Below, piece by piece: positions 1,986-18,660 of a stretch of 60,813 bases of DNA. A program made the translations under genes and the position numbers. Numbering within the stretch: the first letter of the stretch is position 1; each line of letters opens with the position of its first letter. The stretch comes from Acidobacteria bacterium 28-9 (GTDB lineage: Bacteria > Acidobacteriota > Blastocatellia > Pyrinomonadales > Pyrinomonadaceae). Under the pieces are notes generated by a model, which was not told where the DNA came from, made no database searches, and saw nothing but the letters and a program-made list of their open reading frames with translations. Location: NCBI GenBank assembly GCA_002050355.1, contig MWYY01000042.1, forward strand, positions 1 to 60,813, given 5' to 3'.

Positions 1986-2021
1986 TTTTGGACATTTAAA
2001 TTTAAGAACTAGCGAGAAAGA

Positions 2022-4103
2022 TTAATTTCCAGTAACGAACGGAAACGCTGTAATTCTGAGTTTTGCCGCGCCGTACGGAATTAGCGTAACGGTTTCTGTT
2101 TTCGCATTGCTAGTAACCGGCGACGGCGGCGGAGTCCCGGCGGAGTTCATTGCCTCTTTCCACTGCGGCAGACGCTTTGCTTTGACGCGCAGTTCGACGG
2201 GCGCGCCTAGCGTCGTGAATGGATATTCGCCGATTGGTTTGTTGACGACTTCGACATTTTTTTCAATACCGCCGTTTGGAATCAACAATCCGTAATTCCA
2301 AGCGCTTGTCGGTTCGATTTTGTAATCGGCGGCTTCGGGCGGCGCGGGGTTGTTCATCTTGACCATTTGGCGACTGACTTTTTCGCCGATTCTAAGCGAG
2401 AAAATCAGTGGTCCACGTTCGACGGCAATTGAATCGTTGAACCAGCTTGTCGTGCGGGTTTTTAAGGGAAAATTAATTTCAACTTTATCGTTCGCCTTCC
2501 ACTGGCGGTCAAGACGGTGAAACGTTCCGGCTTGAACATTTGTCTGCCTCACGCCGTTGACTTTGACAATCGCGCCGTCTGCCCACGCCGGAATGTGCAG
2601 CACGAGCGGAAATCGGGTTGGCTTATGCGGATTAACCGTCAATTTGATGTCGCCGCGAAACGGATACTCGGTTTCTTCGACGATTGAGACGGGTATTTTA
2701 TTGGCAATGAAAATTCTTACTTCCGACGGCGCGTAGGCGATTGCCGCAATCCCGCCGTCGCCCGTCGCCATCCACAGATTCGCCGTAAATTTTGGAAAAC
2801 CCTGATGCTGATTCGCCGTGCAACAGCCGAACCACGGTTCGAAGCCGAATACATTCGATTCGTCGCCGTTGGTTGACCATCCGCGCGGCGCTTTGTCCGC
2901 CCTGATTTGATTCGGCTGCTGGTCGTATTGATGCGCCGACATATCGCCCGTAAACGCGCCGGGCAGAGCGTTGAAAGCGATTTTCTCCAGACGGTCGGCA
3001 AGCGCCGGATTGCCGCTGACGGAAATAAGTTGTTCGAGCGAAAACATCGTTTCGACGACGGCGCACGTCTCGACGCCCTGCGACGGATTTGTTCCGGCGA
3101 GATGCTCATCGCCGCTGAACAAACCGTTCGGCAAACCGTGGTATTTGTCGAGCGTATCTAGCATCTTTTGACCGGCAGCGCGGTCGTTTTCGTCTCTGGA
3201 AAGCTGTGACCAAATCGTTTCGGTCTTTAAAGCCATTCCATTATTTACGCCGTGAACGCTCAAAGCCAGTTCGTTATTGTTGGACAATTCCTTGTTGAGT
3301 CCGAGTTTTTCCGCGGTCATTTTTTCCTTAAACGAAAAATCGTCAAACTGCGCGCGCCAGTCGAATCCCTGTTCGTGCAGTGTGCGAGCGAGGTCGAGAA
3401 GTTTTTTGTCGCTTGTGCGGTTATAGAGCCACAGCAAGCTCATCACTTCATCGCCCCAGCGATATTTCGCCCATTCATTAAGCGGTTTTTCTTTAGCGCG
3501 GGCAAGATGATAATCGGCGTATTTCGACAGCAGCGGAATGACGCGCTTATCGCCGGTCGCTTCGTAATACTGAATTAAAACCTTCATCATAATCATCCGC
3601 GACCACCATGCGTCGTTTTTGACCGGACCGATTGAGCCGTCGGCGCGTTGGTTCGCCAAAGTCCAGCCAACCCACTTATTCGCTTTGGCAGTTAGTTTCG
3701 GATCGTCGAGCAGAAATGCGAGCGGCACGAGTCCGTCCATATAATACGGACCGCGCTCCCAATCTTCGCCCGTTCCGCCGAGCCAGCCGCTGTTGGCATT
3801 CAAATCCTTCCAGAATTCGTCAATTTTTCCCGTTACGCCGACGGCTTGAATTTGTAGTTGACGTTTCAGCCAGCCGCGCGGTTTGACTGAGGTAAGCGGC
3901 AGCGGATAAAAAGGTATGGCGGGCAATGGCGAGCGATTTTTAACGATTTGCAAGTTTTCCGGCGCAAAAGTTAAAGTTTTATTTATTTTCAACGCCGCGC
4001 GCGGAAAAGATTTTTGACCTGCCGCCGTCGAAGACAACCCGTTCAACAGCAGCGCGTATAAGCAGAGCGCGGCGAAGAGATGATTTAATTTAAATTTTTG
4101 CAT
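2022..4103 (-). CDS. Secreted GH127/DUF1680-like beta-L-arabinofuranosidase-family protein
   Basis: 693 residues with a signal peptide, then an (alpha/alpha)6-barrel of the GH127/DUF1680 type. Motifs seen are GWLKRQL near 77, the W-rich segment NDAWWSRM near 163, GVETCAVVE near 343 and FGCCTANQ near 426. In characterised GH127 enzymes a zinc-bound Glu and three Cys form the active site with Cys as nucleophile. Here Glu345, Cys347, Cys427 and Cys428 reproduce that E-x-C...CC pattern, so the catalytic set looks intact. The C-terminal part is beta-sandwich-like. Arabinofuranosidase activity is family inference; related families remove other L-sugars. It converges on the GH2 gene with a 36-bp gap. 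Confidence 0.87.
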   Translation of the reverse strand: MQKFKLNHLFAALCLYALLLNGLSSTAAGQKSFPRAALKINKTLTFAPENLQIVKNRSPLPAIPFYPLPLTSVKPRGWLKRQLQIQAVGVTGKIDEFWKDLNANSGWLGGTGEDWERGPYYMDGLVPLAFLLDDPKLTAKANKWVGWTLANQRADGSIGPVKNDAWWSRMIMMKVLIQYYEATGDKRVIPLLSKYADYHLARAKEKPLNEWAKYRWGDEVMSLLWLYNRTSDKKLLDLARTLHEQGFDWRAQFDDFSFKEKMTAEKLGLNKELSNNNELALSVHGVNNGMALKTETIWSQLSRDENDRAAGQKMLDTLDKYHGLPNGLFSGDEHLAGTNPSQGVETCAVVETMFSLEQLISVSGNPALADRLEKIAFNALPGAFTGDMSAHQYDQQPNQIRADKAPRGWSTNGDESNVFGFEPWFGCCTANQHQGFPKFTANLWMATGDGGIAAIAYAPSEVRIFIANKIPVSIVEETEYPFRGDIKLTVNPHKPTRFPLVLHIPAWADGAIVKVNGVRQTNVQAGTFHRLDRQWKANDKVEINFPLKTRTTSWFNDSIAVERGPLIFSLRIGEKVSRQMVKMNNPAPPEAADYKIEPTSAWNYGLLIPNGGIEKNVEVVNKPIGEYPFTTLGAPVELRVKAKRLPQWKEAMNSAGTPPPSPVTSNAKTETVTLIPYGAAKLRITAFPFVTGN

Positions 4104-4650
4104 AATCTTTTCCGAAGCGAGTTTTTATTTTCCAAATCGGACGCAGCTTAATAATACTGCTTTTGGCAGGAAGCACAAAAATCCTGTTCGTCGAGCAACG
4201 GTTCGATTTTCTAAATTTCTCCAGCATCGCTCTAAATAATTGAAGCCGGTAAGAAACTGTTCAATAATGATGACCGCCTTTCTTAAATTTGTTTTAGGTA
4301 TTAGTTTCTTTTTAACTTTTAAGTCCAAATGATTTCACCGAAAACATTGTATATACTCATATTTGTGTAGAAACATTAACCTTCGTTTGTTTTTTAATAA
4401 TTTCTCCGATTAATTTAAGTATGATTGTAAAATAGACATCGGTAGAAAATTACTTTCGTATGGTACTGCAGAAATGGATTGGCGGCAAGTTTTTCTCGAC
4501 CGCCGGATTGAATAAATAACCATTCTGACAAAATCAATGTTTTTGTTTTCGGATAAAAATTATGTGGTAATGACAATCAATTTTAATGTTGCAGATTGCT
4601 TTAATGTGCAAAGTTTTAATAAAGTTAAATTTTTATTGGCTTAAAAAGAG
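4104..4650. other. 547-bp intergenic region without convincing gene
   Basis: AT-rich divergent spacer between the GH127-like gene and the first FG-GAP gene. It should contain both promoters, but I cannot single out a convincing -35/-10 pair. A possible minus-strand reading frame of 67 codons (4125-4328) has no ribosome site or recognisable domain and I do not call it. Confidence 0.6.
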
Positions 4651-6453
4651 ATGAAAAAGACATTGTTTTTTTTAATTTTGTTGTTTGGCGCAACAAGTTT
4701 CCCGCACGCCCAAAAGCCTCAAATGGGCGGCTCGTCAACCGGCGAAGCGAAAACGTACGCAACCAGACGAACCACGGGTATTGTTGACGAAAAAGCCCGC
4801 AAAATTTATGTAGACATGACGGCAAACACTGCGCTCAAAAATTTCCGTTGCGTTTCAGGCGGCAAAGAGAAAAACTACATCATTGAAACAACCGCCTGCA
4901 CAACCGCCGTTTTCGATTATGACAATGACGGCAAGCCGGACATTTATCTCCTGAACGGCTCGACGATAAACGCCGAACGCGGCACGGAAAAACCGGCGAA
5001 ATCCGCGCTTTTCCGAAATTTGGGGAACTGGAAATTTGAAGACGTGACGGAAAAAGCGGGCGTTGCAAACGAGCGTTGGGGAATGGGCGTGACAATCGCC
5101 GATTACGATAACGACGGCGACGCGGATTTATTCGTCGGAAATTACGGCATTCCGAGACTTTACCGCAACAACGGCAACGGCACTTTTACCGATGTCGCCG
5201 AGAAAGTCGGGCTGGCGAACAAAGGCTGGCACACGGGCGCGACATTCGGCGATTACGATAAAGACGGACGGCTCGATTTGTTTGTGCCGGCTTATCTGGA
5301 TTTCGATTTTAACAATCTTCCGCCTAGTCCCGATGGCAAAGGAACGGGCGGCGACAAAAATCCGTGTCAGTTTCGCGGACAGCCCGTGATGTGCGGACCG
5401 CGCGGATTGAAAGGCGCGAAAGATAAACTTTTTCATCAAAAGGCGGACGGCACATTTGAAGATGTTTCCTCCAAAACGAATGTGACGGACGAAGGCGATT
5501 ATTACGGTTTCTCCTCGGTGTTTGTTGACGTTGATGACGACCGCGATTTGGATTTGCTGGTCGTCAACGATTCCACGCCGAAACAGCTTTATATCAACAA
5601 GGGCGACGGCACGTTTGAAGAAACGGGTTACGCTTCGGGCATCGCGCTTAATGAAAACGGGCGCGAGCAAGCCGGAATGGGTTTAGCAATCGGCGATTAT
5701 GACAACGACGGGCGCGTTGATTTTCATATCACGAATTTTTCCGACGATTCAAACACGCTTTACCGTAACGACGGCGACGGAAACTTCGCCGACGTAACTT
5801 TTCAAGCCGGAATCGGCGAGCCGACGATTCCCTTTTTAGGTTGGGGAACTTCTTTTTTAGATTTCGACAACGACGGCTGGAAGGATATTATCGTCGCCAA
5901 CGGTCATGTTTATCCGGCGGTTGATAATTTTCAATGGGGAACGAGTTACGCCCAACAATTGCTGCTTTTCAAAAACATCAGGACCGCAAACAACGGACAA
6001 ATCAGATTTGAACGAGTCGCCGCCGCGCCGAACAGCGGTCTGACTCTTTCAATCAACGCCCGCGGAATGGCGATTGCCGATTTCGACGCGGACGGAAAAC
6101 TCGATGTCATCACCGCCAATGCAGGTTCAACTCCGACACTTTTGCGAAATGTATCGGAGGCGAAAAACAATTGGCTGAAAATTAAACTCGTCGGCGATGT
6201 TTCAAAGCAAACGCCCAAAGACGCAATCGGTTCGGCAGTTTTTGTGACAACCGGAAAACTTCGCCAGCGTTTCGATTTAACGAGCGGCGGAAATTATGCT
6301 TCGCAGGATGAGCAGACGATTCATGTCGGACTCGGCGAATCGCTCAAAATTGACAAACTCGAAGTCTTTTGGGCAAACGGACAAACCGAAATCTTTCCGG
6401 TTGACGGCATCAATAAAGTTTTAACAATAAAACAAAACGACCGAGCAAAATGA
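4651..6453 (+). CDS. Exported CRTAC1-family protein (FG-GAP/VCBS repeats + ASPIC/UnbV domain)
   Basis: 600 residues. A signal peptide (MKKTLFFLILLFG...) is followed by a seven-bladed-propeller-type series of FG-GAP/VCBS repeats. Each has a calcium-loop-like D-x-D-N-D-G signature (for example FDYDNDGKPDIY, DYDKDGRLDLF, DFDADGKLDVI). A C-terminal ASPIC/UnbV domain begins near residue 500 (AIGSAVFVTTG ... HVGLGE). Two cysteines about nine residues apart near 245 (NPCQFRG, VMCGPRG) sit in an inter-blade loop and may form a disulfide. Such proteins are exported and probably mediate surface or carbohydrate binding, but no molecular function is established for this subgroup. It is convergent with a similar gene, with stop codons 20 bp apart. 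Confidence 0.88.
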   Translation: MKKTLFFLILLFGATSFPHAQKPQMGGSSTGEAKTYATRRTTGIVDEKARKIYVDMTANTALKNFRCVSGGKEKNYIIETTACTTAVFDYDNDGKPDIYLLNGSTINAERGTEKPAKSALFRNLGNWKFEDVTEKAGVANERWGMGVTIADYDNDGDADLFVGNYGIPRLYRNNGNGTFTDVAEKVGLANKGWHTGATFGDYDKDGRLDLFVPAYLDFDFNNLPPSPDGKGTGGDKNPCQFRGQPVMCGPRGLKGAKDKLFHQKADGTFEDVSSKTNVTDEGDYYGFSSVFVDVDDDRDLDLLVVNDSTPKQLYINKGDGTFEETGYASGIALNENGREQAGMGLAIGDYDNDGRVDFHITNFSDDSNTLYRNDGDGNFADVTFQAGIGEPTIPFLGWGTSFLDFDNDGWKDIIVANGHVYPAVDNFQWGTSYAQQLLLFKNIRTANNGQIRFERVAAAPNSGLTLSINARGMAIADFDADGKLDVITANAGSTPTLLRNVSEAKNNWLKIKLVGDVSKQTPKDAIGSAVFVTTGKLRQRFDLTSGGNYASQDEQTIHVGLGESLKIDKLEVFWANGQTEIFPVDGINKVLTIKQNDRAK

Positions 6454-6473
6454 TTTGTCGTTGAGAGTTAAAA

Positions 6474-8222
6474 TCATTTTTCATTGATTAAATGATAGCG
6501 GTCAATCGCAGGATTTACGAGCGTTTGAGATTTTCCGCTTGTCCAGCGAATTTCGATTTGCCTGACCGAAGCCGCATTGCCTAAGCCGACAAGGATTCGC
6601 GCATCGTTTGCCGCCAGATAACTGCCGGAATTGCTGGCATCAAAAAATTGTTTTCTGCCGTTCGCGTCCGTCACAATAATTCTTGCGCCTTCGCCGTTCG
6701 CCGCGCTCTTTGCACCGCCGCGCAAATCTAGTCCGAGCCAGTGATTTTTCGTACCGTTGTTTCGCAAAACGACGGGCGCGCCGTTAATCTGTGAAATAAC
6801 GACATCCGTGTCGCCGTCATTGTCAAAATCGCCCGCCGCCATTCCGCGCGCCGCAAAATCCGTTTTAAAAACATCGCCTGCCGCCAGCGAAATGTTTTGA
6901 AAACCTTTTTCCGTATTTCGCATCAGGAGCGGCGATTGTTTATATTTCAAAAGCGAATTGGTTTTCTCAATCGTGTCGAGAACGTGGCTCTGCGCAACGA
7001 ACAAATCGCGCCGTCCGTCGTTGTCGGCATCAATCCATTTAACGCCCCAACCCGCTCCGAGAATCGTGATTTGCGCCACGCCGCTCGACTGCGTAACGTA
7101 ATCGAAAATTAATTCGCCCGTATTTCGATACAGCGGGTAAGTTTCGTTCGACAAAGCTGTAATGAAAACGTCCTGCCTGCCGTCGCCGTCGTAATCGGCA
7201 GTGTCCACGCCCATTCCCGAAAAATATTTTCCTTTGTCGTCAAAAGCGACTCCGGCGGCGAGCGCGGAATCTTCAAATCGTCCGTTGCCGAGATTACGCA
7301 AAAGCTGTTGTTCGCTGTTGTCATTAGCGATAAAAACGTCCGTCCAGCCGTCATCGTCAAAATCGGCGAACGCAACGCCCAAAGATTTTCCCTTTGTCTG
7401 CATTATGCCCGATTTTTCCGAAACATCTTCAAAAGTTCCGTCCGATTTTTGGTGAAACAAAAGCGCGGTCGAGCCTTTGAAATTGTCGGGATGACAGTAA
7501 GCGTGATAGCCGGGACGCGCATCGCCGCAGACTAACGCGCCCTTTTCGAAATCCCAGACGACGTAGCGCGTGACCAGTAAATCGAGCCGACCGTCACGGT
7601 CGTAATCGAAAAATCCCGCGCTCGTCGCCCAGCCGTCAACGTTGATGCCGAGTTTTGCGCCCGCGTCGGTAAAAGTGCCGTTACCATTGTTGCGATAAAA
7701 AACCGCGCCGCCGTAATTGGTGACGAACAAATCTGCAAAACCGTCTTTGTCATAATCGCCGACGGCAACGCCGAAACCGTAACCCGTTCCTTTCACGCCC
7801 GCTTTTTCCGTCTGGTCTTCAAAACTGCCGTCCGCTTTTTGCCGATACAAACGATTCCAAAATTTCGGATTCGATTTATCGGGCATTTTCCCTTTCGGCA
7901 TCGGGTCGAGCAATTGCGCGCCGTTGGTAAAAAAAACATCAAGCCGACCGTCATTGTCGTAATCGAGCAAACCGACACCCGCGCCCATCGTTTCAGGTAA
8001 ATATTTTTGCGTGGTCGGCGAAGCCTCGTGTTTAAAATTTATTCCGCTCTGATTGCTAATATTGGTAAAAGTAACGGGCGAAGGAAACTGCGGCGCGGTC
8101 GTTGTGGGACGTTCAGGTTTATTTGAGCTGTAGGATTTGCCCGTCGGTGTTTGTGCGTCAATTGCAAAAGGCGCAAGACAGAGAGCAAAAAAGAATAAAA
8201 ATTTTAATAAACGACCAAGCAT
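6474..8222 (-). CDS. Exported CRTAC1-family protein (FG-GAP/VCBS + ASPIC/UnbV)
   Basis: 582 residues, same architecture as the gene facing it. A signal peptide (MLGRLLKFLFFFALCLAPF) and a short Pro/Thr/Ser-rich linker precede FG-GAP repeats beginning NISNQSGINFKHEAS. Repeats carry DNDGRLDVFF, DKDGFADLFV, DRDGRLDLLV and DFDNDGDTDVV. The ASPIC/UnbV domain is near 490-570 (GEGARIIVTDANGRKQFFDASNSGSY, ILVGLGN, IRWTSGK). A two-Cys loop (CGDARPGYHAYCHPD, about 240) matches the position of the Cys pair in the facing protein. The two genes are clearly paralogous but diverged. They may be exported together; no enzymatic motif is visible. Confidence 0.87.
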   Translation of the reverse strand: MLGRLLKFLFFFALCLAPFAIDAQTPTGKSYSSNKPERPTTTAPQFPSPVTFTNISNQSGINFKHEASPTTQKYLPETMGAGVGLLDYDNDGRLDVFFTNGAQLLDPMPKGKMPDKSNPKFWNRLYRQKADGSFEDQTEKAGVKGTGYGFGVAVGDYDKDGFADLFVTNYGGAVFYRNNGNGTFTDAGAKLGINVDGWATSAGFFDYDRDGRLDLLVTRYVVWDFEKGALVCGDARPGYHAYCHPDNFKGSTALLFHQKSDGTFEDVSEKSGIMQTKGKSLGVAFADFDDDGWTDVFIANDNSEQQLLRNLGNGRFEDSALAAGVAFDDKGKYFSGMGVDTADYDGDGRQDVFITALSNETYPLYRNTGELIFDYVTQSSGVAQITILGAGWGVKWIDADNDGRRDLFVAQSHVLDTIEKTNSLLKYKQSPLLMRNTEKGFQNISLAAGDVFKTDFAARGMAAGDFDNDGDTDVVISQINGAPVVLRNNGTKNHWLGLDLRGGAKSAANGEGARIIVTDANGRKQFFDASNSGSYLAANDARILVGLGNAASVRQIEIRWTSGKSQTLVNPAIDRYHLINEK

Positions 8223-8243
8223 TATTTGAAGTTATGTTACTGG

Positions 8244-9278
8244 CTAATTTTCTGAATCTTTGGCGTTCACCGCTCGAAAATCAATTTGACGTTTCGATTC
8301 GTCAATCAACTCGTTATTTTTTTCATAAGAGAGCATTTCTTCGTCGTTATCTTTTAATTGCGGCGGATAAAAATGTTTACGGTAAACCGGATAAGCCTCG
8401 GTGCGAAGATGCGCGATAAAAGAATGACCGCGCCGAGTGCTTCGTTCGTGGCGAAGCGCTGTGACATCAATCGGTGCAACGACGATTCGCTCGCCAGGAC
8501 CCGGAGATGCGTCGGCAAGCAGTCTGCCGTCAAAATCAACAATCTGACTGCCGCCCGACCACGAATATGGAGGGTAATTTTTAAGGCTCGCGGCTTGATT
8601 GGCGGCGACAACGTAAGCTGTGTTTTCAATGGCGCGGCAGCGATTGATAATCGTCCACCAATCCATCGGCGCGGTTGCGTTCCACGGATCCATATAAGCG
8701 GAAACTCTTAACAAAACTTCCGCGCCGTTCGCGGCGAGTTGTCGCAGCACTTCAGGAAATAGCCAATCATAACAAATCGCCGTTCCGATACGTCCGACGG
8801 GAGTGTCAGCGACCGGAAACAGCGGCTCGTCATAGCCTTCGATGTCGTGCGGACTGGTGTGGACTTCATACGGGATCCACGTATTTACTTTGCGGTATTT
8901 ATACAAAATGCCTTCAGGTCCGATTAAGCAAGTCGTATTAAAAAGCGCGTTTTTATATTTCTTATCAACTTCGAGCATCGAGCCGGTTTGAATATAAATG
9001 TTAAGCTCTTTGGCTTTTTCCCAAATGCGTTCGGTGTGTTCGTTCGGAATTTCGACGGCTAGTTTTTCGATTAATTCTTTCGCCGTTGGGAAAACCGGCG
9101 CAGCGTGCGCGAATTCAGGAAAGACGACTAATTTAACCGGCAAAAACGGCGCGGCTCCGGCGACTGCCGAATCAATTATCGAAAGAAGGCGGTCGGTATT
9201 TCGGCGCATCCCGCGACGGTCAACAGGATTCGGCTGGTCGGTCTGGCAAGCCGCGGCGGAATATCTGATATGTTCCAT
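8244..9278 (-). CDS. Nitrilase-superfamily amidohydrolase
   Basis: Carbon-nitrogen hydrolase of about 344 residues, cytoplasmic (no signal peptide). The Glu-Lys-Cys triad is visible: Glu in VVFPEFAH (about 55), Lys in YKYRKVNTW (about 130) and Cys in TAICYDWLFPEV (about 169). The family hydrolyses nitriles or amides through a cysteine thioester. Similarity is to the aliphatic-amidase/N-carbamoyl hydrolase branches, but substrate is not readable from sequence. ATG at 9278 is preferred; an in-frame TTG lies 9 bp upstream. Only 21 bp separate it from the FG-GAP gene downstream on the same strand, so the two may be cotranscribed. Confidence 0.88.
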   Translation of the reverse strand: MEHIRYSAAACQTDQPNPVDRRGMRRNTDRLLSIIDSAVAGAAPFLPVKLVVFPEFAHAAPVFPTAKELIEKLAVEIPNEHTERIWEKAKELNIYIQTGSMLEVDKKYKNALFNTTCLIGPEGILYKYRKVNTWIPYEVHTSPHDIEGYDEPLFPVADTPVGRIGTAICYDWLFPEVLRQLAANGAEVLLRVSAYMDPWNATAPMDWWTIINRCRAIENTAYVVAANQAASLKNYPPYSWSGGSQIVDFDGRLLADASPGPGERIVVAPIDVTALRHERSTRRGHSFIAHLRTEAYPVYRKHFYPPQLKDNDEEMLSYEKNNELIDESKRQIDFRAVNAKDSEN

Positions 9279-9325
9279 AAAACTCAATTATTGATTACGA
9301 TTTAATTACTAATCGTTAAAGCGAA

Positions 9326-12300
9326 TTATTTTATCAAAGCCGTTTCCAAACGGGGCAAAAAGCCTTTGACCGAGCGTGTTGTATATTCGTTATAGATTCG
9401 TCGTTTTTCCTCGGTCATCGGAAACCGCTCGTTCGCCGCGTATGGATATTTACTCATTCCTTTAAATGGCAGCGGAAACACGGCTTCGGGACTGCCTGAA
9501 TTGATGTCCATCTCTTTGCTGTAACCGTCGGCAAAAAGTAAAAACGTATATTTTTTATTTTTCGCGGGTTCGGGCAAAGCTTCGAAACTTAAAACCAGTT
9601 CGTCGCCGGTTTTCGAGATGACGAACTGGTCGTCAATTGCTTCGAGCAGCGTATTGACCGCGCCGAGTTTTGTAAATGCGCCGCTGAAATACTTCCAGCG
9701 TCCGTCGCGTAAAACCGTATCGTAGTTAGCTGTAACCATCTCGCTGTATTTGATTTCTTCAGAGAATCCGCGCTCGCGCAAGTCGGATTGCGAGGGTTTT
9801 GTTTCAATCGTTTTCACGTCCGTTTGTTCGCTTGTGTCAACTTCAATTTTATCCCAGTAAGTTTTGAAATTCGTCACGATGCGGACTTCGCGCGAGTCGG
9901 GCAAAAACTTGCCGGTCAAATCTACTACTAAAGTCTGCGGTCGTCCGACTGAAATCCCGATGCTGTCAATCGCCGTTTGCCATTCGCCCTTTTCGTTTTT
10001 AACTTGCAGTTTCGGTAGAAACAACGATTTTCCGCTTTGCGATGCAGCGAGATTGTCCGACGAAAAAGCGTAATCCGTCCAGCCTGTCAGAAGCAGCAAA
10101 GTTCTGCCTTGGTAACCCTTTTTGTTATCCAGATTCAAAGTCAGATTGTGCGTTTCGGCGTAACCTCGAATATTTAGCGATTTGAAACGGTCGTAGAATT
10201 TTCGGTCAAGATTTTTAATATTTTCCAAAACGCTTTTTCCGTTTGTATCAACTGCCGAAACCGGCGCTTGCGCCGCTCGCGTCGTATATAAAATTCGCTT
10301 TCCCGCCGTCGGAACTCCTAAACCTTCGTTCGGATAAATTTCCTTATCGGCATCGTGTTCGACGGCGATGAGTTTCAAATGATCGAGAAACAAAACTTCT
10401 TCGAGTTCGTTTGTCACGCGGATTTCGTATTTTCCGCTTTTCGGTTTCAATTGGTCTGAAGTAATCCGCACGAACTCGTCCGAATCGGGATAATGATACG
10501 CGCTCGCTTCCTGCCAATTTCCCATCTCGCCGCCGCCGAGAAAATCTGTGATGAATTCAAATCGCTCGCCGTTCCAGGTGTAAAGATACGGACACGAAGA
10601 CGGTTTGCGGTCTAACTCTTCGATTTTCAGCCAGGCGAAGTTTTTCGCCGTTTGGATTTTAAGTTTTTGGGGAAATTCTGTTTCCGCTTGAACGATTCCC
10701 GAAGTCCAAATCACTCGCACGGCATCGGGTTTTTCGCGCTGTCCGAGTCCGAAATGAATTTGTGATGGCGCGGGCATCGGACTTGCCGAATAGCTCTCTA
10801 ATTTTTGTGCGAGACTTCCCGCCCGCATATCAACTTTCGCGCCGACGGCGGTTCTGTTTGAAACGCGCCCTTGCAGACGCAAAATTTCGGCGTTGTTGAC
10901 GCTGCCGCCGTCATTGCGCAGAAGGCGACCGCCAATAATCAAATCTAAATCACCGTCATTATCGAGGTCAGCGGACAAAATTTTGGCTGCGCCTGCAAAG
11001 CTTGCGGATTGTTTAAAAGGTTTTGCAGTCGCCTCGGCAAATTCACCGCCTAAGTTTCTGGAAATCAAAAGCCCTTTTGCGGTCGCAACAATTAAATCCA
11101 GCAAGCCGTCGTTATCGTAATCCAAAAACTGCGATGCGGTCGCATTTTCCGTTCCATTCGGAGCGTCTTTGATCGTAAATTTTCCGCCGCCGTCTGAAAC
11201 CGCCAAAACTCCTTTCGCTTCATTGCTCCAGCCTTTAACTTTGCCGAAGAAAAAATCAACAAAATCGTCTTTATTAAAATCGCCGACCGCCAGACAACTC
11301 CAATTATCAACCGCATCTAACCCGACTTCACCGGCGACATCCTTGAAAGAACCGTCGCGCAGATTACGCAGAAGATTCGGCTTGTCCTGATGATTTAAGA
11401 CGAGCAAATCAACGTCACGGCGATTATCATAATCGAGCGGCACGATCGCCACGGACTTACCTTCAAACGCGGCTTTACCTGTGTCGCCCTTTGATTGGTT
11501 TATCTTCGCCGCCTCAGAAATGTCGCTGAAAGTGCCGTCGCCGTTGTTACGCAAAAGCAAATTGGGAACCGCCTTAAACTCGTTCGGAAAAGCAAAGTCG
11601 TTGAGTTCGGATTTGCCGTCGTCAATACCTGCAAATCCGGCAACGAAAACGTCTAAATCGCCGTCGTGGTCAGCATCCACAAAAGCGGTGGAAACGGATA
11701 AATGCGGGTATTTCGATAATTTTGCCTGCTCGGAAACATCTTTGAATTTGCCTTTTCCTTCGTTGCGGTAAAGCCGTAATTCCTTATAGCCGACAAACAA
11801 AAGGTCCGGGAGATTGTCGTTGTCGAAATCACCGGCGACGAGGCTCGTGCCGATTGAATTAATGGGCGTTACCAAATCTCCCGCAGCGATTGAAACATCC
11901 GTGAATTTACCGCGAATATTACGATACAACGATATTTTGCTAACCGTTTTTGCCGACGAATTTCCCTGTGCATTCTTTTGAAAATTCGCGAGCGTATTGT
12001 CAATTCTGGCTAAATCCAGATTGCCGTCGCCGTCAAAATCAATCAGAGTTTCGCCGCCTTCAAACGCTCGCAAAATTTGATATTTTGATTGTGGCTTTCC
12101 GCTAAACGGTTTAAATATTGGAAGCCCAAGAACGATTGAAGATTTATTTTTAATGCCGACGGGCATCTCAATAAAAGTAACTTTCGGCTCGGTTTTGTCA
12201 ACGAGTTCGCTTTCCGCACCGGTCGATGTAATCGCTTCGGCGTAGCGTCCCTGTTCGAGATAATTCTGACCGATGCTCGTCGCCGCGCCACTTTGTCTTA

Positions 12301-12919
12301 ACGTCTGAAAGCGCCTCATCAATTGCTGTCCTTCTTCGCGCGCGCCGCCGCGAAGGAGCGCGGTGGCTAAGTTATACAAAGCCGTCGCGTTATACGGTTC
12401 GGCTGCGATTGCCCGGCGAAAAGCGGCTATTGCTTCCGTGTATTTGCGCTGCTGAACATAAATCTGTCCGAGATTGACGTTTGCGCCGACATCTTCCGGG
12501 TCAATCGCCAAAACTCGTTTGAAAGCAGCAGCGGCATCGTCGGTGCGATTTTGATTTTTGGCAATCAGTCCGAGAATGTAGATTGGCTGCGGGCTTTCCG
12601 GCACGTTTTTAGCCGCCGTTTGCGCCGCCGTCTGCGCCGCTTCGATGTCCTGCAAGTTAAAAAGCGCGATTGCCAAATTGATTTGCCCGATTTTCAGTTG
12701 CGGAGCGAGCACGAGAGCGCGGCGGAAAGCCTCCGCGCCTTCTTTGTAATTGAATTGTTCGAGCTTCGCTACGCCGAAATTGTTGGCGTGATAAGCGTCT
12801 TCACGCTGAACGGCGGAAATTTGCCTGACTGTCTGCGCCGAAACCCGCAAAAAATGCGGCGCAAATAAAACGGTGGATAAAACAATAACGGAAACGAAAA
12901 GACGCAGCTTCAACTTCAT
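9326..12919 (-). CDS. Large exported TPR + FG-GAP/VCBS + ASPIC/UnbV protein
   Basis: 1197 residues. After a signal peptide (to about 28, SAQ) come tetratricopeptide repeats (about 40-230; NLGQIYVQQRKYTEAIAAFRRAI, YNLATALLRGG). FG-GAP/VCBS repeats follow (about 290-690; DFDGDGNLDLA, DADHDGDLDVFV, DLDNDGDLDLII). An ASPIC/UnbV module is near 690-760 (GAKVDMRAG ... IHFGLGQ). A C-terminal beta-rich region of about 430 residues begins CPYLYTWNGERF near 800 and recurs in large acidobacterial TPR/FG-GAP proteins, to my recollection. It is probably a periplasmic or surface assembly protein. It is the longest of the four FG-GAP genes here and heads the strand leading to the nitrilase gene (39-bp gap or more). 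Confidence 0.86.
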   Translation of the reverse strand: MKLKLRLFVSVIVLSTVLFAPHFLRVSAQTVRQISAVQREDAYHANNFGVAKLEQFNYKEGAEAFRRALVLAPQLKIGQINLAIALFNLQDIEAAQTAAQTAAKNVPESPQPIYILGLIAKNQNRTDDAAAAFKRVLAIDPEDVGANVNLGQIYVQQRKYTEAIAAFRRAIAAEPYNATALYNLATALLRGGAREEGQQLMRRFQTLRQSGAATSIGQNYLEQGRYAEAITSTGAESELVDKTEPKVTFIEMPVGIKNKSSIVLGLPIFKPFSGKPQSKYQILRAFEGGETLIDFDGDGNLDLARIDNTLANFQKNAQGNSSAKTVSKISLYRNIRGKFTDVSIAAGDLVTPINSIGTSLVAGDFDNDNLPDLLFVGYKELRLYRNEGKGKFKDVSEQAKLSKYPHLSVSTAFVDADHDGDLDVFVAGFAGIDDGKSELNDFAFPNEFKAVPNLLLRNNGDGTFSDISEAAKINQSKGDTGKAAFEGKSVAIVPLDYDNRRDVDLLVLNHQDKPNLLRNLRDGSFKDVAGEVGLDAVDNWSCLAVGDFNKDDFVDFFFGKVKGWSNEAKGVLAVSDGGGKFTIKDAPNGTENATASQFLDYDNDGLLDLIVATAKGLLISRNLGGEFAEATAKPFKQSASFAGAAKILSADLDNDGDLDLIIGGRLLRNDGGSVNNAEILRLQGRVSNRTAVGAKVDMRAGSLAQKLESYSASPMPAPSQIHFGLGQREKPDAVRVIWTSGIVQAETEFPQKLKIQTAKNFAWLKIEELDRKPSSCPYLYTWNGERFEFITDFLGGGEMGNWQEASAYHYPDSDEFVRITSDQLKPKSGKYEIRVTNELEEVLFLDHLKLIAVEHDADKEIYPNEGLGVPTAGKRILYTTRAAQAPVSAVDTNGKSVLENIKNLDRKFYDRFKSLNIRGYAETHNLTLNLDNKKGYQGRTLLLLTGWTDYAFSSDNLAASQSGKSLFLPKLQVKNEKGEWQTAIDSIGISVGRPQTLVVDLTGKFLPDSREVRIVTNFKTYWDKIEVDTSEQTDVKTIETKPSQSDLRERGFSEEIKYSEMVTANYDTVLRDGRWKYFSGAFTKLGAVNTLLEAIDDQFVISKTGDELVLSFEALPEPAKNKKYTFLLFADGYSKEMDINSGSPEAVFPLPFKGMSKYPYAANERFPMTEEKRRIYNEYTTRSVKGFLPRLETALIK

Positions 12920-13042: not shown

Positions 13043-14164
13043 TCACTGCTGATTACACAATTTTTCCAGCGTCGCGCAGACTTCTTCAATTTGCTCGTTT
13101 GTAATGCGGTTGAAAAAAGGCAACGCGATGACTCGTTCGGCGGCGTGTTCGGCAACCGGAAAATCACCTGGTTTGAAGCCGAATGTTTTGACGTAAAAAG
13201 GCTGAAGATGAATCGGCGCGAAATAGCGTCCGCAGCCGATTCCGGCGCGAATCATCTCGCCGACAATCGAGTCGCGTCGCGCTCTCGTAAAATTTTCTTT
13301 CAATCGCACGACGTAAACAAACCAACTGTTGCGCCCGTTTGAAAAATCAATGTCCGGCAGAATGAGATGCGGATTATTAAGCAGCCGCGCGTTATATTTT
13401 CGCGCGATTGATTCTCTTTGATTCAAGATAAATTCGAGCCGTTTGAGTTGTTCGATACCGAGCGCGCAATTGATGTCGGACAAGCGGTAGTTATAGCCTA
13501 ATTCGATGTGTTCAAACCATTCGGATGATGCGTCGCGTCCTTGATTTCTCAGCATTTCGGCTTGTTCGGCGATTGAATCGTCATTCGTTACAATCATTCC
13601 GCCTTCGCCCGTCGTGATTTGTTTGTTCGGATAAAAGGCGAAAACTCCCGCATCGCCGATGCTTGCGGCTCGTCGGTTTTCGTATTCCGCGCCGATGGCT
13701 TCGCAGGCGTCTTCAATCACTTTCAGATTGTAACGGTCGGCGATTTCCATAATCTCGCGCATCGGCGCGGGACGACCGAAAACGTGGACGATTACAATCG
13801 CTCTGGTTTTGGCGGTTATCGCCCCTTCGATTTTGTTTGCGTCAATATTGAGCGTCTTTAAATCAATATCTACGAAAACCGGCAAGGCTTTTTCATACAA
13901 CAGAACATTGGCTGAGGCGATGAAGCTGAACGGCGTGGTGATAACTTCGTCGCCCGCTTTTAAGCCGAGAGCGCGAACGCAGAGATGCAGACCGCTCGTG
14001 CCGGAATTGACCGCGACCGCGTGTTTTGTTCCGGCGTATTCGGCGACGCTATGCTCGAATTCTTTGAGCTTCGGACCGAGACTCAAGCGCGGCGAGCGCA
14101 GAACTTCGACGACGGCGTTGATTTCATTTTCGGAAATGTCGGGCGCGGCGAGCGGAATTTTCAT
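13043..14164 (-). CDS. DegT/DnrJ/EryC1/StrS-family sugar aminotransferase
   Basis: 373-residue PLP enzyme of the fold-type I sugar aminotransferase family. N-terminal IPLAAPDISENEI, the phosphate-binding NSGTSGLHL (about 53-60), EDACEAIGA (about 151) and the Schiff-base lysine in FYPNKQITTGEGG (Lys181) are all present. These enzymes transaminate nucleotide-linked keto-sugars to amino sugars for glycans. Its ATG overlaps the stop of the NeuC-type epimerase by 4 bp, so the two are translationally coupled and probably act in one sugar pathway, such as a nonulosonic acid or modified amino sugar. The other enzymes of such a pathway are not in the window. Confidence 0.9.
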   Translation of the reverse strand: MKIPLAAPDISENEINAVVEVLRSPRLSLGPKLKEFEHSVAEYAGTKHAVAVNSGTSGLHLCVRALGLKAGDEVITTPFSFIASANVLLYEKALPVFVDIDLKTLNIDANKIEGAITAKTRAIVIVHVFGRPAPMREIMEIADRYNLKVIEDACEAIGAEYENRRAASIGDAGVFAFYPNKQITTGEGGMIVTNDDSIAEQAEMLRNQGRDASSEWFEHIELGYNYRLSDINCALGIEQLKRLEFILNQRESIARKYNARLLNNPHLILPDIDFSNGRNSWFVYVVRLKENFTRARRDSIVGEMIRAGIGCGRYFAPIHLQPFYVKTFGFKPGDFPVAEHAAERVIALPFFNRITNEQIEEVCATLEKLCNQQ

Positions 14165-15378
14165 AAACCTTTAACCGTTTCCTCCTGCCGCAGATTGGCG
14201 TTTTCGAGCGGCACGGCGCGTTTGATTAAAAGTTTGTCGCCCAAAGGCGTTTGGCATAAAATTTCCGCGATTCTTTCCGAAGCGTGTCCGTCGCCGTAAG
14301 GATTCGTCATTCCTTTCAAAGATTCTCTGAAATCCGCGCTTAATCCTTTCTCGATTGCATCGAGAATCGAATCGGTTTCGGGCGCGGCATTGATAACATT
14401 ACGTGCCTGCTCGCGCCCCTTTTGACGAATTCCGATGTTGACGGTGGGCAAACCGAGCGACGGCGTCTCCATAATTCCGCTGCTCGAATTGCCGACTAGT
14501 AAATCCGCGTAAGACAATAAACTCCAGTATTTCAAATGGTTTAGGTTAACGAATAAACGGGAGTTCGGATGATTGCGGCAAAATTCTCGAGCGCGTTCAA
14601 TTAGCTGATGACTTCCGGCGTCGGAGTTCGGATAGCAAAAGACAATCTGCTGCGGAGTTTTCTCCAGAGCGGCGAACACCTCGCCGGCTTCGGAAACCGT
14701 ATCGCGCGTCAGCGTTACCGGATGATACGCGACCACAATAGTTGGTTGATTGAATTTCAATTCTAAATCCGCTTCTATTTCAGCGCGTGAAAACAAAGTT
14801 CGGCGGCGCAGATTATCGAGCGACGGCGAACCGACTAGGTGAACGCGCCACGCTTCTTCGCCCATCGCCAAAACTCTGAGGCGCGAATTTTCGTTGCTCG
14901 TAAAATGAATGTGGCTCATTTTCGTCAGCGCGTTTCGCACCGCGTCGTCAATCGCGCCTTCGCTGATGTCGCCGCCTTCGATATGCGCTATCGGAATTCT
15001 AAGCGCGAGCGCCACCGAAGCCGGTGCGAGCATCTCGTATCGGTCGGCAATCAGCAGTAGAATATCCGGTCTCATTCTGCCTAAAACGTCTGCCAAACCG
15101 ATTGCTGCAACGCCAATTGTTTTCGCCATTCCAACGTCGCTGTCCGAACTGATTAAACATTCGACGCGCTCGTCAATCGTGAATCCGTCGGCTTCGATTT
15201 CCTTAAAAGTATTTCCGAATTCAGGAGAAAAATGCGCGCCCAGCGCAATCAGTTGAAGATTGATTTGCGGACGATTTTGCAGCTCTTTGAGCGTCCAGTA
15301 AAGATGTCCGTAATCAGCCCGCGAGGTGGTAACGACCGCGATTTTACGCGGCGAAAATTTTTCCGACGGTTGAATCAT
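14161..15378 (-). CDS. neuC: UDP-N-acetylglucosamine 2-epimerase (hydrolysing), NeuC-like
   Basis: 405 residues with the GT-B-like epimerase fold. KIAVVTTSRADYGHLYW near the N-terminus, ADRYEMLAPASVA (about 120), HIEGGDISEGAIDDAVRNA (about 143) and the C-terminal VGNSSSGIMETPSLGLPTVNIG are characteristic of the hydrolysing NeuC/LegG branch rather than WecB. The reaction is UDP-GlcNAc (or a derivative) to ManNAc (or 6-deoxy-diamino analogue) plus UDP, the entry step to sialic-acid-like sugars. It is upstream of and overlaps the DegT aminotransferase by 4 bp. A neuC name is tentative because LegG-type enzymes look alike. Confidence 0.85.
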   Translation of the reverse strand: MIQPSEKFSPRKIAVVTTSRADYGHLYWTLKELQNRPQINLQLIALGAHFSPEFGNTFKEIEADGFTIDERVECLISSDSDVGMAKTIGVAAIGLADVLGRMRPDILLLIADRYEMLAPASVALALRIPIAHIEGGDISEGAIDDAVRNALTKMSHIHFTSNENSRLRVLAMGEEAWRVHLVGSPSLDNLRRRTLFSRAEIEADLELKFNQPTIVVAYHPVTLTRDTVSEAGEVFAALEKTPQQIVFCYPNSDAGSHQLIERAREFCRNHPNSRLFVNLNHLKYWSLLSYADLLVGNSSSGIMETPSLGLPTVNIGIRQKGREQARNVINAAPETDSILDAIEKGLSADFRESLKGMTNPYGDGHASERIAEILCQTPLGDKLLIKRAVPLENANLRQEETVKGL

Positions 15379-15425: not shown

Positions 15426-16559
15426 TTAGCGTTTTTGGTTAGCTTTCGTCGACACGGTAGCAGTATTTGATTTAACCGTCTCGCCGCCGACTAACAGATT
15501 GAATTTGCGCTGCGTCTCCTGAGACCAGCCGGGAATCAGTTCTTTGACGATGCCTTTGTCGTCAACCAGAATCGTCAGCGGTACGCTTAATTCGTCGGTC
15601 GCGTAAATATTTTCGATTGCCGCGACGCCGCCGATTAAAATCGGGTAAGTAACGCGTTTGTTTGCCAAGTAGCCTTTGATGTTCGCGCCTCTTTCGGTGT
15701 CAACATTGATGCCGATTAAATCAACGCCGCGAGTCGCAAATTGCGGACGCATTCGTTCCAGTTCCGGCATTTCTTTGGCGCACGGCACGCACCACGTCGC
15801 CCAAATGTTTATCAAAGTCTGTCGTCCCGCTTTCATCTGTTTTTTCACCGAACTCGCCGCGCCGTTCATCGTTTTGACCGCAAAATCCGGCAGTGGTTTG
15901 CCGATTTCGATTTTCAACCCGCGCGCTAAAATTTCGGTTTTCGTCAGCGGATTCGGTAAATTGGCTTTGCTGACCGAAATGCTGTTCACCTTTCCGCTTC
16001 CCTTTTTCAGAAGCAGCGTCGAACCAGACGCAGCATTGGCGGCAAATCGTTCGACTTCGCCGTTTGCCCAGGTAACTTCAATCGATTCGGCTTCTTTATC
16101 TTTGCCCAAACCGAACAGCAAACGCGAATCGTGCTGCGAGATGAAACCAGAACCGCCCGATTTAATTTTCGTCAGCGTTCCGGCGGAAGTTTTTACGCGG
16201 ACGACTGCGCCGTATGCGTCTGTTCCGGTTTTCGCATCGCCCTCCAAACCGATTCGCAAAAAATTATTATCCTGCCCGACGTTGTTTCTGAAAAGCAGAT
16301 GCGCCTGATTTTGAATCGTCGTCGAGAAAACGTCCAGATCGCCGTCGTTGTCAAAATCGGCGAATACTCCGGCGCGTCCGTCGGTTATCGAATCGATGCC
16401 CGACACGCCCGAAATATCGGTGAATTTCTTGCCGCCTAAATTCAGGTAAAGCGGGTCTCGCTCGTAGCCGCTGAAGGAAAATCCCTGACCGAACATCAGT
16501 TGATTTTGATCCGAACGCAGCGCTCCTTTTTCATCTTTCCCGTCGTTTGAATGCGTCAC
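15426..16559 (-). CDS. C-terminal part of split FG-GAP/UnbV protein, ending in TlpA-like thioredoxin domain
   Basis: Open frame of 377 codons starting formally at GTG 16559. It is not a normal start: no ribosome site precedes it, and the frame continues upstream through SQFWRQV to a TGA at 16583-16581 that closes the preceding gene. It therefore looks like the second part of one 983-residue protein. It contains a last FG-GAP unit (DFDNDGDLDVF), an ASPIC/UnbV domain (about 100-185 of this part) and a thioredoxin/TlpA domain with the redox motif WCVPC (Cys257 and Cys260 here). A basic tail follows. The TlpA fusion suggests periplasmic thiol-disulfide chemistry attached to the propeller. Confidence 0.75.
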   Translation of the reverse strand: MTHSNDGKDEKGALRSDQNQLMFGQGFSFSGYERDPLYLNLGGKKFTDISGVSGIDSITDGRAGVFADFDNDGDLDVFSTTIQNQAHLLFRNNVGQDNNFLRIGLEGDAKTGTDAYGAVVRVKTSAGTLTKIKSGGSGFISQHDSRLLFGLGKDKEAESIEVTWANGEVERFAANAASGSTLLLKKGSGKVNSISVSKANLPNPLTKTEILARGLKIEIGKPLPDFAVKTMNGAASSVKKQMKAGRQTLINIWATWCVPCAKEMPELERMRPQFATRGVDLIGINVDTERGANIKGYLANKRVTYPILIGGVAAIENIYATDELSVPLTILVDDKGIVKELIPGWSQETQRKFNLLVGGETVKSNTATVSTKANQKR

Positions 16560-16583
16560 AACTTGACGCCAGAACTGACTTCA
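16553..16583 (-). promoter_or_regulatory. Candidate UGA recoding site with SECIS-like hairpin
   Basis: On the minus strand the TGA (16583-16581) is followed after 11 nt by a perfect 6-bp inverted repeat, GCGTCA (16569-16564) and TGACGC (16558-16553), enclosing the 5-nt loop AGTTG. The apical loop starts 17 nt after the TGA and has a G at its second position. Bacterial selenocysteine insertion elements, as I recall the published consensus, need a 4-16 bp upper stem, a 3-14 nt loop with a G in the first two positions, and 16-37 nt from UGA to loop; this site meets each. Selenocysteine is inference: selC, selA, selB and selD are not in the window. Confidence 0.5.
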
Positions 16584-18377
16584 GGTGTCTTTCATCGACT
16601 TGCCGGAAATAAAGCCGTTCGGCGTGTAGATATCTTCCCAGCCGTCGTTGTCGAAATCGATAAATCCGCCGCCCCACGCCCAGCCGCCGCCGAAGCCGCC
16701 GACTTCCGCCGTTACGTCCTTGAATTTTCCGTCGCCGGTGTTTTCAAATAGATTGTTGCCTGCCGCGAGTTTTTTTAAGACGTTATCTTTCGCGCTCGAA
16801 TTCGGAAACAGTCTTGAAAGAATTCGATTGCCCGCCGTCGAACTCATATTCGAGGCATGAATGTCTAGCCGCCCGTCGTTGTTATAATCGCCGAACGAAA
16901 CGCCCATTCCGTTGCCGGGGTCGAGAACGCCGCGCTCTGTCGCTTCGTCAACGAAATGGTCGCCTTTGTTGATATACAAAACCTTTTCGCCAAAATCGTT
17001 GGCGACATATAAATCAATTTTGCCGTCAGCATTCACATCCGCAAATTCCGCCGCGTAACTCCAGCGCTTGTCGTCAACCCCCCATTTCTTCGCTTCTTCG
17101 CGGAAAGTTCCGTCTCGCTGGCTGATAAATAATAAATCGGGTGTGCCATTCGTCGCCTTAAACCACGAATCGGGCGTCACTTGTCCGTAGCGATTATACG
17201 AAGTGACGTAAACGTCCAAAAAACCGTCGCCGTTGACATCGCCTGCGACCGCCGAAAAACCGATGGCGTTTTTCGCCACGCCGCTTTCCAACGATACGTC
17301 GTCGAATTCGAGTCTGCCGGTTTGTTTGAAAGTATTTCTTAAAAGTATTTGCTGCCCGACCGACGAAATGAAAACGTCCACATCGCCGTCGTTGTCGTAA
17401 TCCAAAACGAGCGGTGCGGTTCCCGCAGATGTAATCCTTACGCCCCCTTCGTCGGAGGCGTCTCGGAAACCGCCTTTTTTATTGTTTAAATATAAATAAT
17501 TGCGATTCGCGCCGACGACGAAAAGGTCAATCCAGTTATCGTTGTTGAAATCTCCGGCAGCGGCGCCGTGCCAGACGAAGCCGCTGTTTTCCGGCGTTCC
17601 GAAACTGGGCAAAGTCGCGCCGACTCCTGCCGGAATAGCCACTTCGGAAAACAAATCTTTTTCAGCGACGAGCGAGTCGAAGCTGACCAACTCGAACGAA
17701 TCAAATTGCCAGTGTTTATTTTTATCGGCGCGGACATTTGCCCAAAAAGTTCCGCGCGCCCATTCGCGCTTGCCCTCCGTATCACGCCCGATGACGTAAA
17801 AAGCAACGCGCGACCGTCCCACCGCGCCTATGACAGCCGTCGGTTGCTCTGCGCCCAGAACGGCTTTTGCCGAGTCATCAAAGTTAGCTTCCTTAACTTT
17901 GAAGCGCGCGTCTTCGATTTCAGAGAAATGTGCCAAAAAACCCGCCCAATTGTTTAAGAATGTCTTGCCCGTTATTTTGCCCGCGCCAATAGCTTTATTC
18001 GAGACACTCAGGGCAAAATTTTCCGGCGTTTCCCAATTATGCGCGCCAACCCACTTAACTTGATTTTTTATCACCGTCGGACGCGACGGAAAAGGTTTAG
18101 CGGCAATTAAAGCTGGAAAAAATTCAGCCATCAATTGTAGATCGCGGTCGCGCGCGGCAAGGGAAAGTTCCAGCAAATCATTGGCAAACGATTCTGAGAG
18201 TTCTTCGATTACCTCCAAACGGTTATGGTCAACCTTTTGCGTTTTATTAGTTGGCAGAGTTATCGTTTGCGCCGACGCTCTATACTCAATTGCACCGATA
18301 GCCGTTAATAGAATTAACACACAAATCAATATTGTTAGGGAAAGCGTATGAATATGGTAAAAATTGGAGTGACTCAT
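16581..18377 (-). CDS. N-terminal part of split FG-GAP/UnbV-thioredoxin protein, ending at in-frame TGA
   Basis: 598 sense codons from ATG 18377 (an in-frame TTG lies at 18401). A membrane-spanning signal segment (about 12-30) is followed by an alpha/beta region of about 200 residues of NTF2-like character. FG-GAP/VCBS repeats start at WHGAAAGDFNNDNWIDLF and run through DNDGDVDVFI, GDGFLDVYV, NADGKIDLYV and DFDNDGWEDIYTPNGF. Reading stops at TGA in the middle of the propeller (GKSMKDT-stop-SQFWRQV). The downstream frame is the same frame and is fully conserved in character, so this is neither a frameshift nor a decayed gene. Either the TGA is recoded (see recoding site) or it is a fresh nonsense change or a base error. 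Confidence 0.78.
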   Translation of the reverse strand: MSHSNFYHIHTLSLTILICVLILLTAIGAIEYRASAQTITLPTNKTQKVDHNRLEVIEELSESFANDLLELSLAARDRDLQLMAEFFPALIAAKPFPSRPTVIKNQVKWVGAHNWETPENFALSVSNKAIGAGKITGKTFLNNWAGFLAHFSEIEDARFKVKEANFDDSAKAVLGAEQPTAVIGAVGRSRVAFYVIGRDTEGKREWARGTFWANVRADKNKHWQFDSFELVSFDSLVAEKDLFSEVAIPAGVGATLPSFGTPENSGFVWHGAAAGDFNNDNWIDLFVVGANRNYLYLNNKKGGFRDASDEGGVRITSAGTAPLVLDYDNDGDVDVFISSVGQQILLRNTFKQTGRLEFDDVSLESGVAKNAIGFSAVAGDVNGDGFLDVYVTSYNRYGQVTPDSWFKATNGTPDLLFISQRDGTFREEAKKWGVDDKRWSYAAEFADVNADGKIDLYVANDFGEKVLYINKGDHFVDEATERGVLDPGNGMGVSFGDYNNDGRLDIHASNMSSTAGNRILSRLFPNSSAKDNVLKKLAAGNNLFENTGDGKFKDVTAEVGGFGGGWAWGGGFIDFDNDGWEDIYTPNGFISGKSMKDT

Positions 18378-18660
18378 TTTGCCCAATTGAACGAAAATCA
18401 ATTCAAAAAAAGGAAGTTTGGTTTCAAAAATGTAGATACTTTTTCAAAATTATATAAAATTCTCTGTTAATTTTAACTGGTCTATCGTGAATTTGACAAT
18501 CTTCAAGCAAAAGAATTGTGAGTTTGATAAATATAATAGTTGAGTTTTCAGGCTTTGACACATACTTTAATTAGGAGAATTTGCGCTACGCACCTGAGAT
18601 GAAATGTAATAAAAATTTCAATTACTAAATCTTTTTTACCAACCCAGAATAGAGCAGCAA

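Follow-up and report, generated by a model that had tools for sequence, protein, structure and literature searches.

We present evidence that a gene on the minus strand of a 60,813-nucleotide contig of Acidobacteria bacterium 28-9 (MWYY01000042.1, assembly GCA_002050355.1; hereafter the window) is in all probability a selenoprotein gene, in which the UGA at codon 599 is recoded to selenocysteine (Sec). The initial annotation of this DNA had proposed as much, and its reading is supported by the conservation of the TGA, by the presence of the Sec machinery in the source genome and by a selenocysteine insertion sequence (SECIS) hairpin, the case for each being built on sequence comparison. We posit that SelB with Sec-tRNA(UCA) would bind the hairpin that starts 12 nt past the UGA, and that the ribosome would insert Sec at UGA 599 to yield a single protein of 983 amino acids. 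The predicted product is an FG-GAP repeat protein of the CRTAC1/UnbV type fused to a TlpA-like thioredoxin domain; its Sec falls within the repeat core, in the conserved stretch D-(T/L)-U-S-x-x-W-R. The features of the gene are as follows.

15426..18377, minus strand: predicted Sec-containing FG-GAP/UnbV-TlpA gene, 983 amino acids with U599 (read-through translation; Pfam domains above gathering scores)
16581..16583, minus strand: UGA codon predicted to be read as Sec, U599 (TGA in 12/12 aligned orthologues)
16553..16569, minus strand: candidate bacterial SECIS hairpin (6-bp stem, loop AGTTG; synonymous-recoding test; one covarying pair)
18267..18377, minus strand: signal-peptide-like N-terminal hydrophobic stretch ending in ASA-Q (by eye)
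16278..17570, minus strand, approximate span by eye: FG-GAP repeats, with the Sec inside (Pfam FG-GAP_3, 142.6 bits)
16032..16217, minus strand: UnbV_ASPIC domain, residues 721-782 (Pfam PF07593, 54.4 bits against 23.4)
15516..15905, minus strand: TlpA/ResA-like thioredoxin domain with WCVPC, residues 825-954 (Pfam Redoxin, 65.3 against 26.6; ResA/TlpA structures by sequence)

The two open reading frames (ORFs) at 16581-18401 and 15426-16559 lie in one frame, the lone separator being the TGA at 16583-16581 on the minus strand. The initial annotation had this frame and the coordinates of the TGA right, save that the upstream mechanical ORF, which it had started at the ATG at 18377, actually begins at a TTG at 18401. 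Its further statement that read-through gives one continuous CRTAC1-type protein agrees with Pfam: FG-GAP_3 matches six stretches (best at residues 447-506; gathering score 26.9), and both it and PF07593 exceed their gathering scores, which places the protein in the CRTAC1/UnbV family. The TlpA-like C-terminal domain with WCVPC, likewise pointed out earlier, was located with its motif at residues 862-866, about 260 residues after U599. Its Redoxin/AhpC-TSA score above the Pfam cut-off and its CxxC are those of a TlpA/ResA-type thioredoxin domain, and the NCBIfam TlpA and ResA models score below their cut-offs (64.4 against 230 and 79 against 170, respectively). Residues about 50-240 form a conserved N-terminal part for which no Pfam family of its own is listed, and which may resemble a SnoaL/NTF2-like domain.

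Across 59 genomes, the source included, a long orthologue was recovered in 11 besides the source, every one with an in-frame TGA; that of G015 has an additional TAG, which ends its gene. The 12 aligned orthologues show 54-84% identity to the window protein, and codon 599 is the sole codon column with TGA in all 12. Synonymous sites differ by 43-78%, and the ratio of nonsynonymous to synonymous change (pN/pS) is 0.22-0.42 before the TGA and 0.18-0.46 after it. Purifying selection is thus similar on the two sides, in keeping with the earlier remark that the downstream part shows no decay, and in none of the 12 sequences does the CxPC of the TlpA-like domain vary. A class-wide search (162 genomes, 111-residue query) returned 25 matches: 22 TGA orthologues, the source included, two TGA paralogues and a lone orthologue with Ser (L065, codon TCG). 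The homologue alignment that had been suggested as a check hence finds the TGA conserved, both in the 12 aligned orthologues and in the 22 of the class. Some relatives do carry an unrelated sense codon and no TGA, which the annotation held would speak against its proposal, but the 22 class orthologues do not.

The wider family was sampled by scanning genome contigs and keeping the best 80 loci among 537 relatives; the Sec column was anchored by a profile over the loci fetched up to that point, and the rows counted are those readable at that column. Of 126 such rows, 97 have TGA and 29 a sense codon, with neither TAA/TAG nor Cys in any; 109 are distinct, 80 of them with TGA. The in-frame UGA is therefore conserved as expected of a bacterial selenoprotein (12/12 orthologues; 97/126 rows), and the same signal is carried by no fewer than 80 related genes spread over several bacterial phyla. 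The TGA rows come from Acidobacteriota, Planctomycetota, Verrucomicrobiota, Myxococcota, Latescibacterota and, by one locus, Gemmatimonadota. The named records among those best 80 loci are nearly all metagenome-assembled genomes; the single-contig genomes G265, G352 and G376 also carry TGA forms. In one Akkermansiaceae genome (G175; L081, L097, L130) 18 of 19 matches are TGA members, the nineteenth falling short of the Sec column. Strong matches were found in 74 of 396 Acidobacteriota genomes, and a scan of 288 genomes from the phylum of G175 matched G175 alone; the former scan scored 9 candidates per genome and the latter 13, so that absence is weak evidence in both, and in the phylum of G175 the family may either be patchy or have members that the scan missed.

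The 29 sense rows hold mainly Asn and Glu, and some of them are probably misplaced (among these a minus-strand row of L105 and long-branch rows of L122, L138 and L147); L077, frame-shifted near the site, gives no row. A second sample comprised 40 fetched matches without a stop (27 of 35 from the Acidobacteriota scan and 13 of 20 from the scan that includes G175) plus the loci L158, L188 and L190, at least two of these 43 (L158, L243) repeating loci of the first set. Its 92 readable rows, to which loci of the Acidobacteriota scan, of the scan that includes G175 and of the scan of the phylum of G175 also contribute, comprise 49 with TGA, 40 with a sense codon and three gaps, again with no TAA/TAG; the sense residues, in rows some of which repeat the 126-row set, are Glu 13, Gly 6, Val 5, Cys 4, Asn 3, Ser 3, Ala 2, Asp 2 and Met 2. 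The four Cys rows (L226, L227, L232, L240) share the motif D-Y-C-T-x-F-W-x-H-D-I, which also occurs with Glu, while sense rows that retain the FWRQVV motif of the Sec forms have Asn, Gly, Ser, Ala, Asp, Glu or Met and never Cys. A statement that there are no Cys homologues at all was dropped after these four rows came to light. The annotation had asked whether homologues have Cys or TGA in this column: TGA they have, whereas the sense forms mostly bear residues other than Cys. A quick tree of 105 of the 109 distinct rows, with the four Cys rows outside it, needs at least seven changes between Sec and sense (five forced by well-supported branches) as against 25 with shuffled labels. Several sense groups are nested inside Sec groups in this tree, and long branches leave parts of it unsure.

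Directly downstream of the TGA lies the hairpin, with the strands GCGTCA (16569-16564) and TGACGC (16558-16553) enclosing the loop AGTTG (16563-16559); the loop stands 17 nt from the TGA and has G at its second position, exactly the geometry that the annotation had described. The bacterial SECIS limits given in the Fig. 2 legend of PMC13188914 are a loop of 3-9 nt, a stem of 4-16 bp, G in the first two loop bases, a distance of 16-37 nt from the UGA and a minimum free energy of at most -7.5 kcal/mol. The window hairpin lies within every one of them (loop 5, stem 6, G at 2, 17 nt, -11.4 kcal/mol), so that the earlier view of it as a match to the bacterial SECIS pattern stands as far as that legend goes. 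Its fold as a single sequence is only modest: over 40 nt it reaches -11.4 kcal/mol (z -1.71), which 13 of 200 shuffles match, and the force of the hairpin evidence lies in the comparison across relatives.

Since TGA and sense rows were poorly told apart by folding energy alone (p<0.05 in 17/80 TGA rows vs 0/29 sense rows), we adopted a targeted hairpin score that requires G in the first two loop bases, with synonymous recodings that keep the protein fixed as the null; this score was chosen after the sequences had been seen. The 80 distinct TGA rows average 16.1 against 8.0 when recoded, with a Fisher combined p of 3e-27 that is too strong, the rows being related; the 29 sense rows average 5.0 against 4.8 (p 0.996), and one of them reaches p<=0.05. 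Taken singly, 35 of the 80 TGA hairpins have p<=0.05. The commonest loops among the 80 are GGTC (29), GGTCG (15) and AGTTG (10), GGUC being also found in the SECIS loop of E. coli fdhF. In the 33 distinct class I sequences, which were selected by at least five of six pairs and so favour pairing, 99.0% of cells are paired (shuffles 91.5%) with 15 both-side changes (shuffles 3.5), and the pairing is lost when the partners are slid; 17 of 86 sequences fall outside all three registers. Pair 15-25, which joins a synonymous Arg third base to the first base of a Thr/Ala/Ser/Pro codon, is paired in 33/33 with five pair types. Looking for a SECIS at the TGA flanks and in relatives, as had been advised, thus found the published model satisfied and the signal conserved across TGA rows. 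Two verrucomicrobial Glu forms (L105:7057 and L124:2893) still fold the six-pair stem, but around a loop in which the early G is missing; this is what a SECIS in decay should look like, and the two are likely recent Sec losses.

The source genome encodes the components that a bacterial selenoprotein calls for: selA (544 bits), selB (404 bits), a tRNA-Sec with anticodon TCA, and selD, which scores above its cut-off at two places. These genes, whose presence the annotation had wanted ascertained and the absence of which (selB, selC, selD) it would have taken against a selenoprotein, were all found. Both selD places have an in-frame TGA in VSCAG-U-VAKLAP according to the frame listing, which, judged from the reading frame alone, would make selD a second witness for UGA recoding in this genome. 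The two selD genes (L161 on C29, L162 on C97) are very similar: either the gene is present twice or part of the assembly has been duplicated.

Possession of the TGA form also goes with the Sec trait. Among Acidobacteriota with a match, selA is found in 45 of 48 TGA-form genomes and in 14 of 26 sense-only genomes (Fisher p 1e-4); among genomes at least 94% complete, a line that we chose, the figures are 31/31 and 12/23 (p 1.4e-5), one of the 31 (G557) having a partial selA match under the curated cut-off. Both p values are optimistic, the genomes being related. Within the class, 145 of 162 genomes have selA, and hence its presence there, in 21 of the 22 TGA-orthologue genomes, tells little. For selB, 41 of 49 named genomes have a match above the cut-off, whether they carry TGA or sense forms. 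Physical linkage is seen as well: in a planctomycete (L194, the same place as L107) positions 416-10043 hold a compact Sec island of tRNA-Sec, an oxidoreductase-SelD fusion, SelA and SelB, with the Sec-CRTAC1 gene divergent from it, and selA lies about 0.4 kb downstream of the Sec gene in L192 and at about 3.7 kb in L193 of the same genus.

Several observations weigh against a Sec-encoding gene. No selA was found in G069, a class genome with a TGA orthologue, or in three TGA-form genomes of the Acidobacteriota scan (completeness 72, 75 and 91%), and five of the eight genomes without a passing selB hold a TGA locus (L068, L074, L082, L084, and L094 at 235 vs 242 bits). In the single-row test 45 of the 80 TGA hairpins fail, five of them with p>0.5. 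All 15 double changes of class I fall in one of the six stem pairs, four pairs being invariant; the number of additional pair types does not exceed that in shuffles (equalled in 88 of 500), and no Rfam SECIS family matched here. Finally, Cys seldom takes the place of Sec (0/29 and 4/40 sense rows), unlike in described selenoproteins.

The alternatives nevertheless fare worse. A nonsense mutation, a pseudogene or a base-calling error in one genome, which the annotation had kept in view, could be entertained inasmuch as the window comes from one draft assembly of 117 contigs; the same-codon TGA in 22 class orthologues and in distant members, the three single-contig genomes among them, answers it from independent assemblies, as does the similar selection downstream, and we regard it as next to inconceivable. 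Slightly less remote, yet still very improbable, is a true stop followed by a second protein re-initiated at the GTG eight codons downstream, where the mechanical ORF begins and which is kept in the window and the 11 listed orthologues. However, the seven codons from TGA to GTG, outside any second ORF, retain S-x-F-W-R with synonymous change, the eighth codon is CTG in the TGA members L073 and L088, the sense-codon relatives are one continuous frame, and TAA or TAG never replaces the TGA in either row set. We judge equally poorly the notion that a code change, a suppressor or plain read-through places another amino acid at the UGA without selenium: the varied residues of the sense relatives would suit it, but TGA also terminates genes of the family (L015, L016, L019, L021, L023), and both the SECIS signal and the link to selA speak for Sec.

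What the Sec does is a more delicate matter. The annotation had argued that a redox-type C-terminal domain makes a Sec sensible; while the window protein does have that domain, the Sec is not adjacent to it but sits in the repeat core, and of eight TGA members scanned, two have a thioredoxin-type domain above the Pfam cut-off, two only below it and four none, which makes the domain a partner at most and undoes the argument. A thioredoxin motif occurs in 30/80 TGA rows and 0/29 sense rows, by a count that misses domains seen by Pfam (L078). In the FG-GAP core the D-x-U stretch is strictly kept, D58 and U60 of alignment A2 being invariant in 20/20 rows. The protein is probably exported, and our best guess has it acting in redox chemistry or metal handling, with a TlpA-like protein, fused or separate, keeping its Sec reduced. 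More specifically, we tentatively assign the Sec a catalytic or metal-binding role in an extracytoplasmic redox protein, in which the fused TlpA domain, where present, would keep it reduced. A somewhat less favored option is that it binds a metal or has a structural part in the repeat core, and is not a thiol-type redox residue. Its position in that core, the four members without a thioredoxin-type domain and replacements that are mainly Asn, Glu, Gly, Ser, Val and Asp agree with this; the existence of the Cys group and the invariant CxPC of the TlpA-like domain do not. The site seems to be required in its Sec form alone, which would point to a function peculiar to it. Evenly balanced in our estimation is the proposal that Sec was established early in a large CRTAC1/UnbV branch where Cys could not replace it, its loss being followed by drift to Asn, Glu, Gly, Ser and others with the activity lost. 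Were this so, an exported repeat protein with calcium loops would harbor a selenium active site of a kind hitherto unknown.

Human CRTAC1 (PDB 9etn) and other CRTAC1/ASPIC-UnbV proteins share the FG-GAP repeats and the UnbV domain with the window protein, but the alignment to the human protein leaves out the Sec-bearing stretch (about profile positions 523-680). The UGC-containing TlpA selenoproteins (WAxxUGC_long, NF041054) have the TlpA-like domain in common with it; the window protein instead has WCVPC far beyond its Sec and scores 32.5 bits against a cut-off of 300, outside that family. With the 119 families and subfamilies of bacterial selenoproteins covered by PMC13188914, as far as its text goes, it shares UGA, SECIS, SelA/B/D and tRNA-Sec, the rarity of Cys forms setting the Sec-CRTAC1 family apart.

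This Sec-containing family is apparently new. The text and table of that 2026 inventory have no FG-GAP, CRTAC1 or VCBS entry, and no NCBIfam selenoprotein model (June 2026) scored above its cut-off for nine family proteins scanned, consistent with the annotation, which knew of no described selenoprotein of CRTAC1 type. In the open literature, with longer listings seen at their top and subscription journals outside the scope, nothing linked FG-GAP, CRTAC1 or UnbV with Sec. The main texts of PMC12013277, PMC9312934 and PMC4807772 name no such family, their supplementary tables, including the planctomycete selenoprotein candidates of PMC4807772, being outside the scope. A CRTAC1-family gene has been reported between homologues of hydrazine synthase subunits, in a main text that does not mention Sec (PMC12758564). 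We found no prior description, though a groundwater-genome study that PMC13188914 cites for candidate selenoproteins could hold members. Computational searches for bacterial selenoproteins commonly rely on Cys homologues, and the paucity of such homologues here may explain how at least 80 genes were missed. A 2025 paper states in its main text that all known selenoproteins now seem to have Cys homologues (PMC12013277). The family would place selenium outside the thioredoxin fold, in a repeat protein that is probably exported, would give Sec decoding a concrete use in soil and sediment bacteria known mainly from metagenomes, and opens the way to direct experiment.

The neighborhood of the gene contains further members of the superfamily, among them one with a recurrent association.

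9329..12919, minus strand: TPR + FG-GAP + UnbV gene without an in-frame TGA (a homologue lies downstream of the Sec gene in 7/15 related loci, several of the remaining loci ending too early to tell)

Positions 4651-12919 of the window hold in all three more FG-GAP/UnbV genes without an in-frame TGA, less than 14 kb from the Sec gene, making a cluster of four CRTAC1-type genes. Genes for a UDP-GlcNAc 2-epimerase and a DegT-type aminotransferase (13046-15378) separate the Sec gene from the TPR-CRTAC1 gene here; in several relatives these last two are adjacent.

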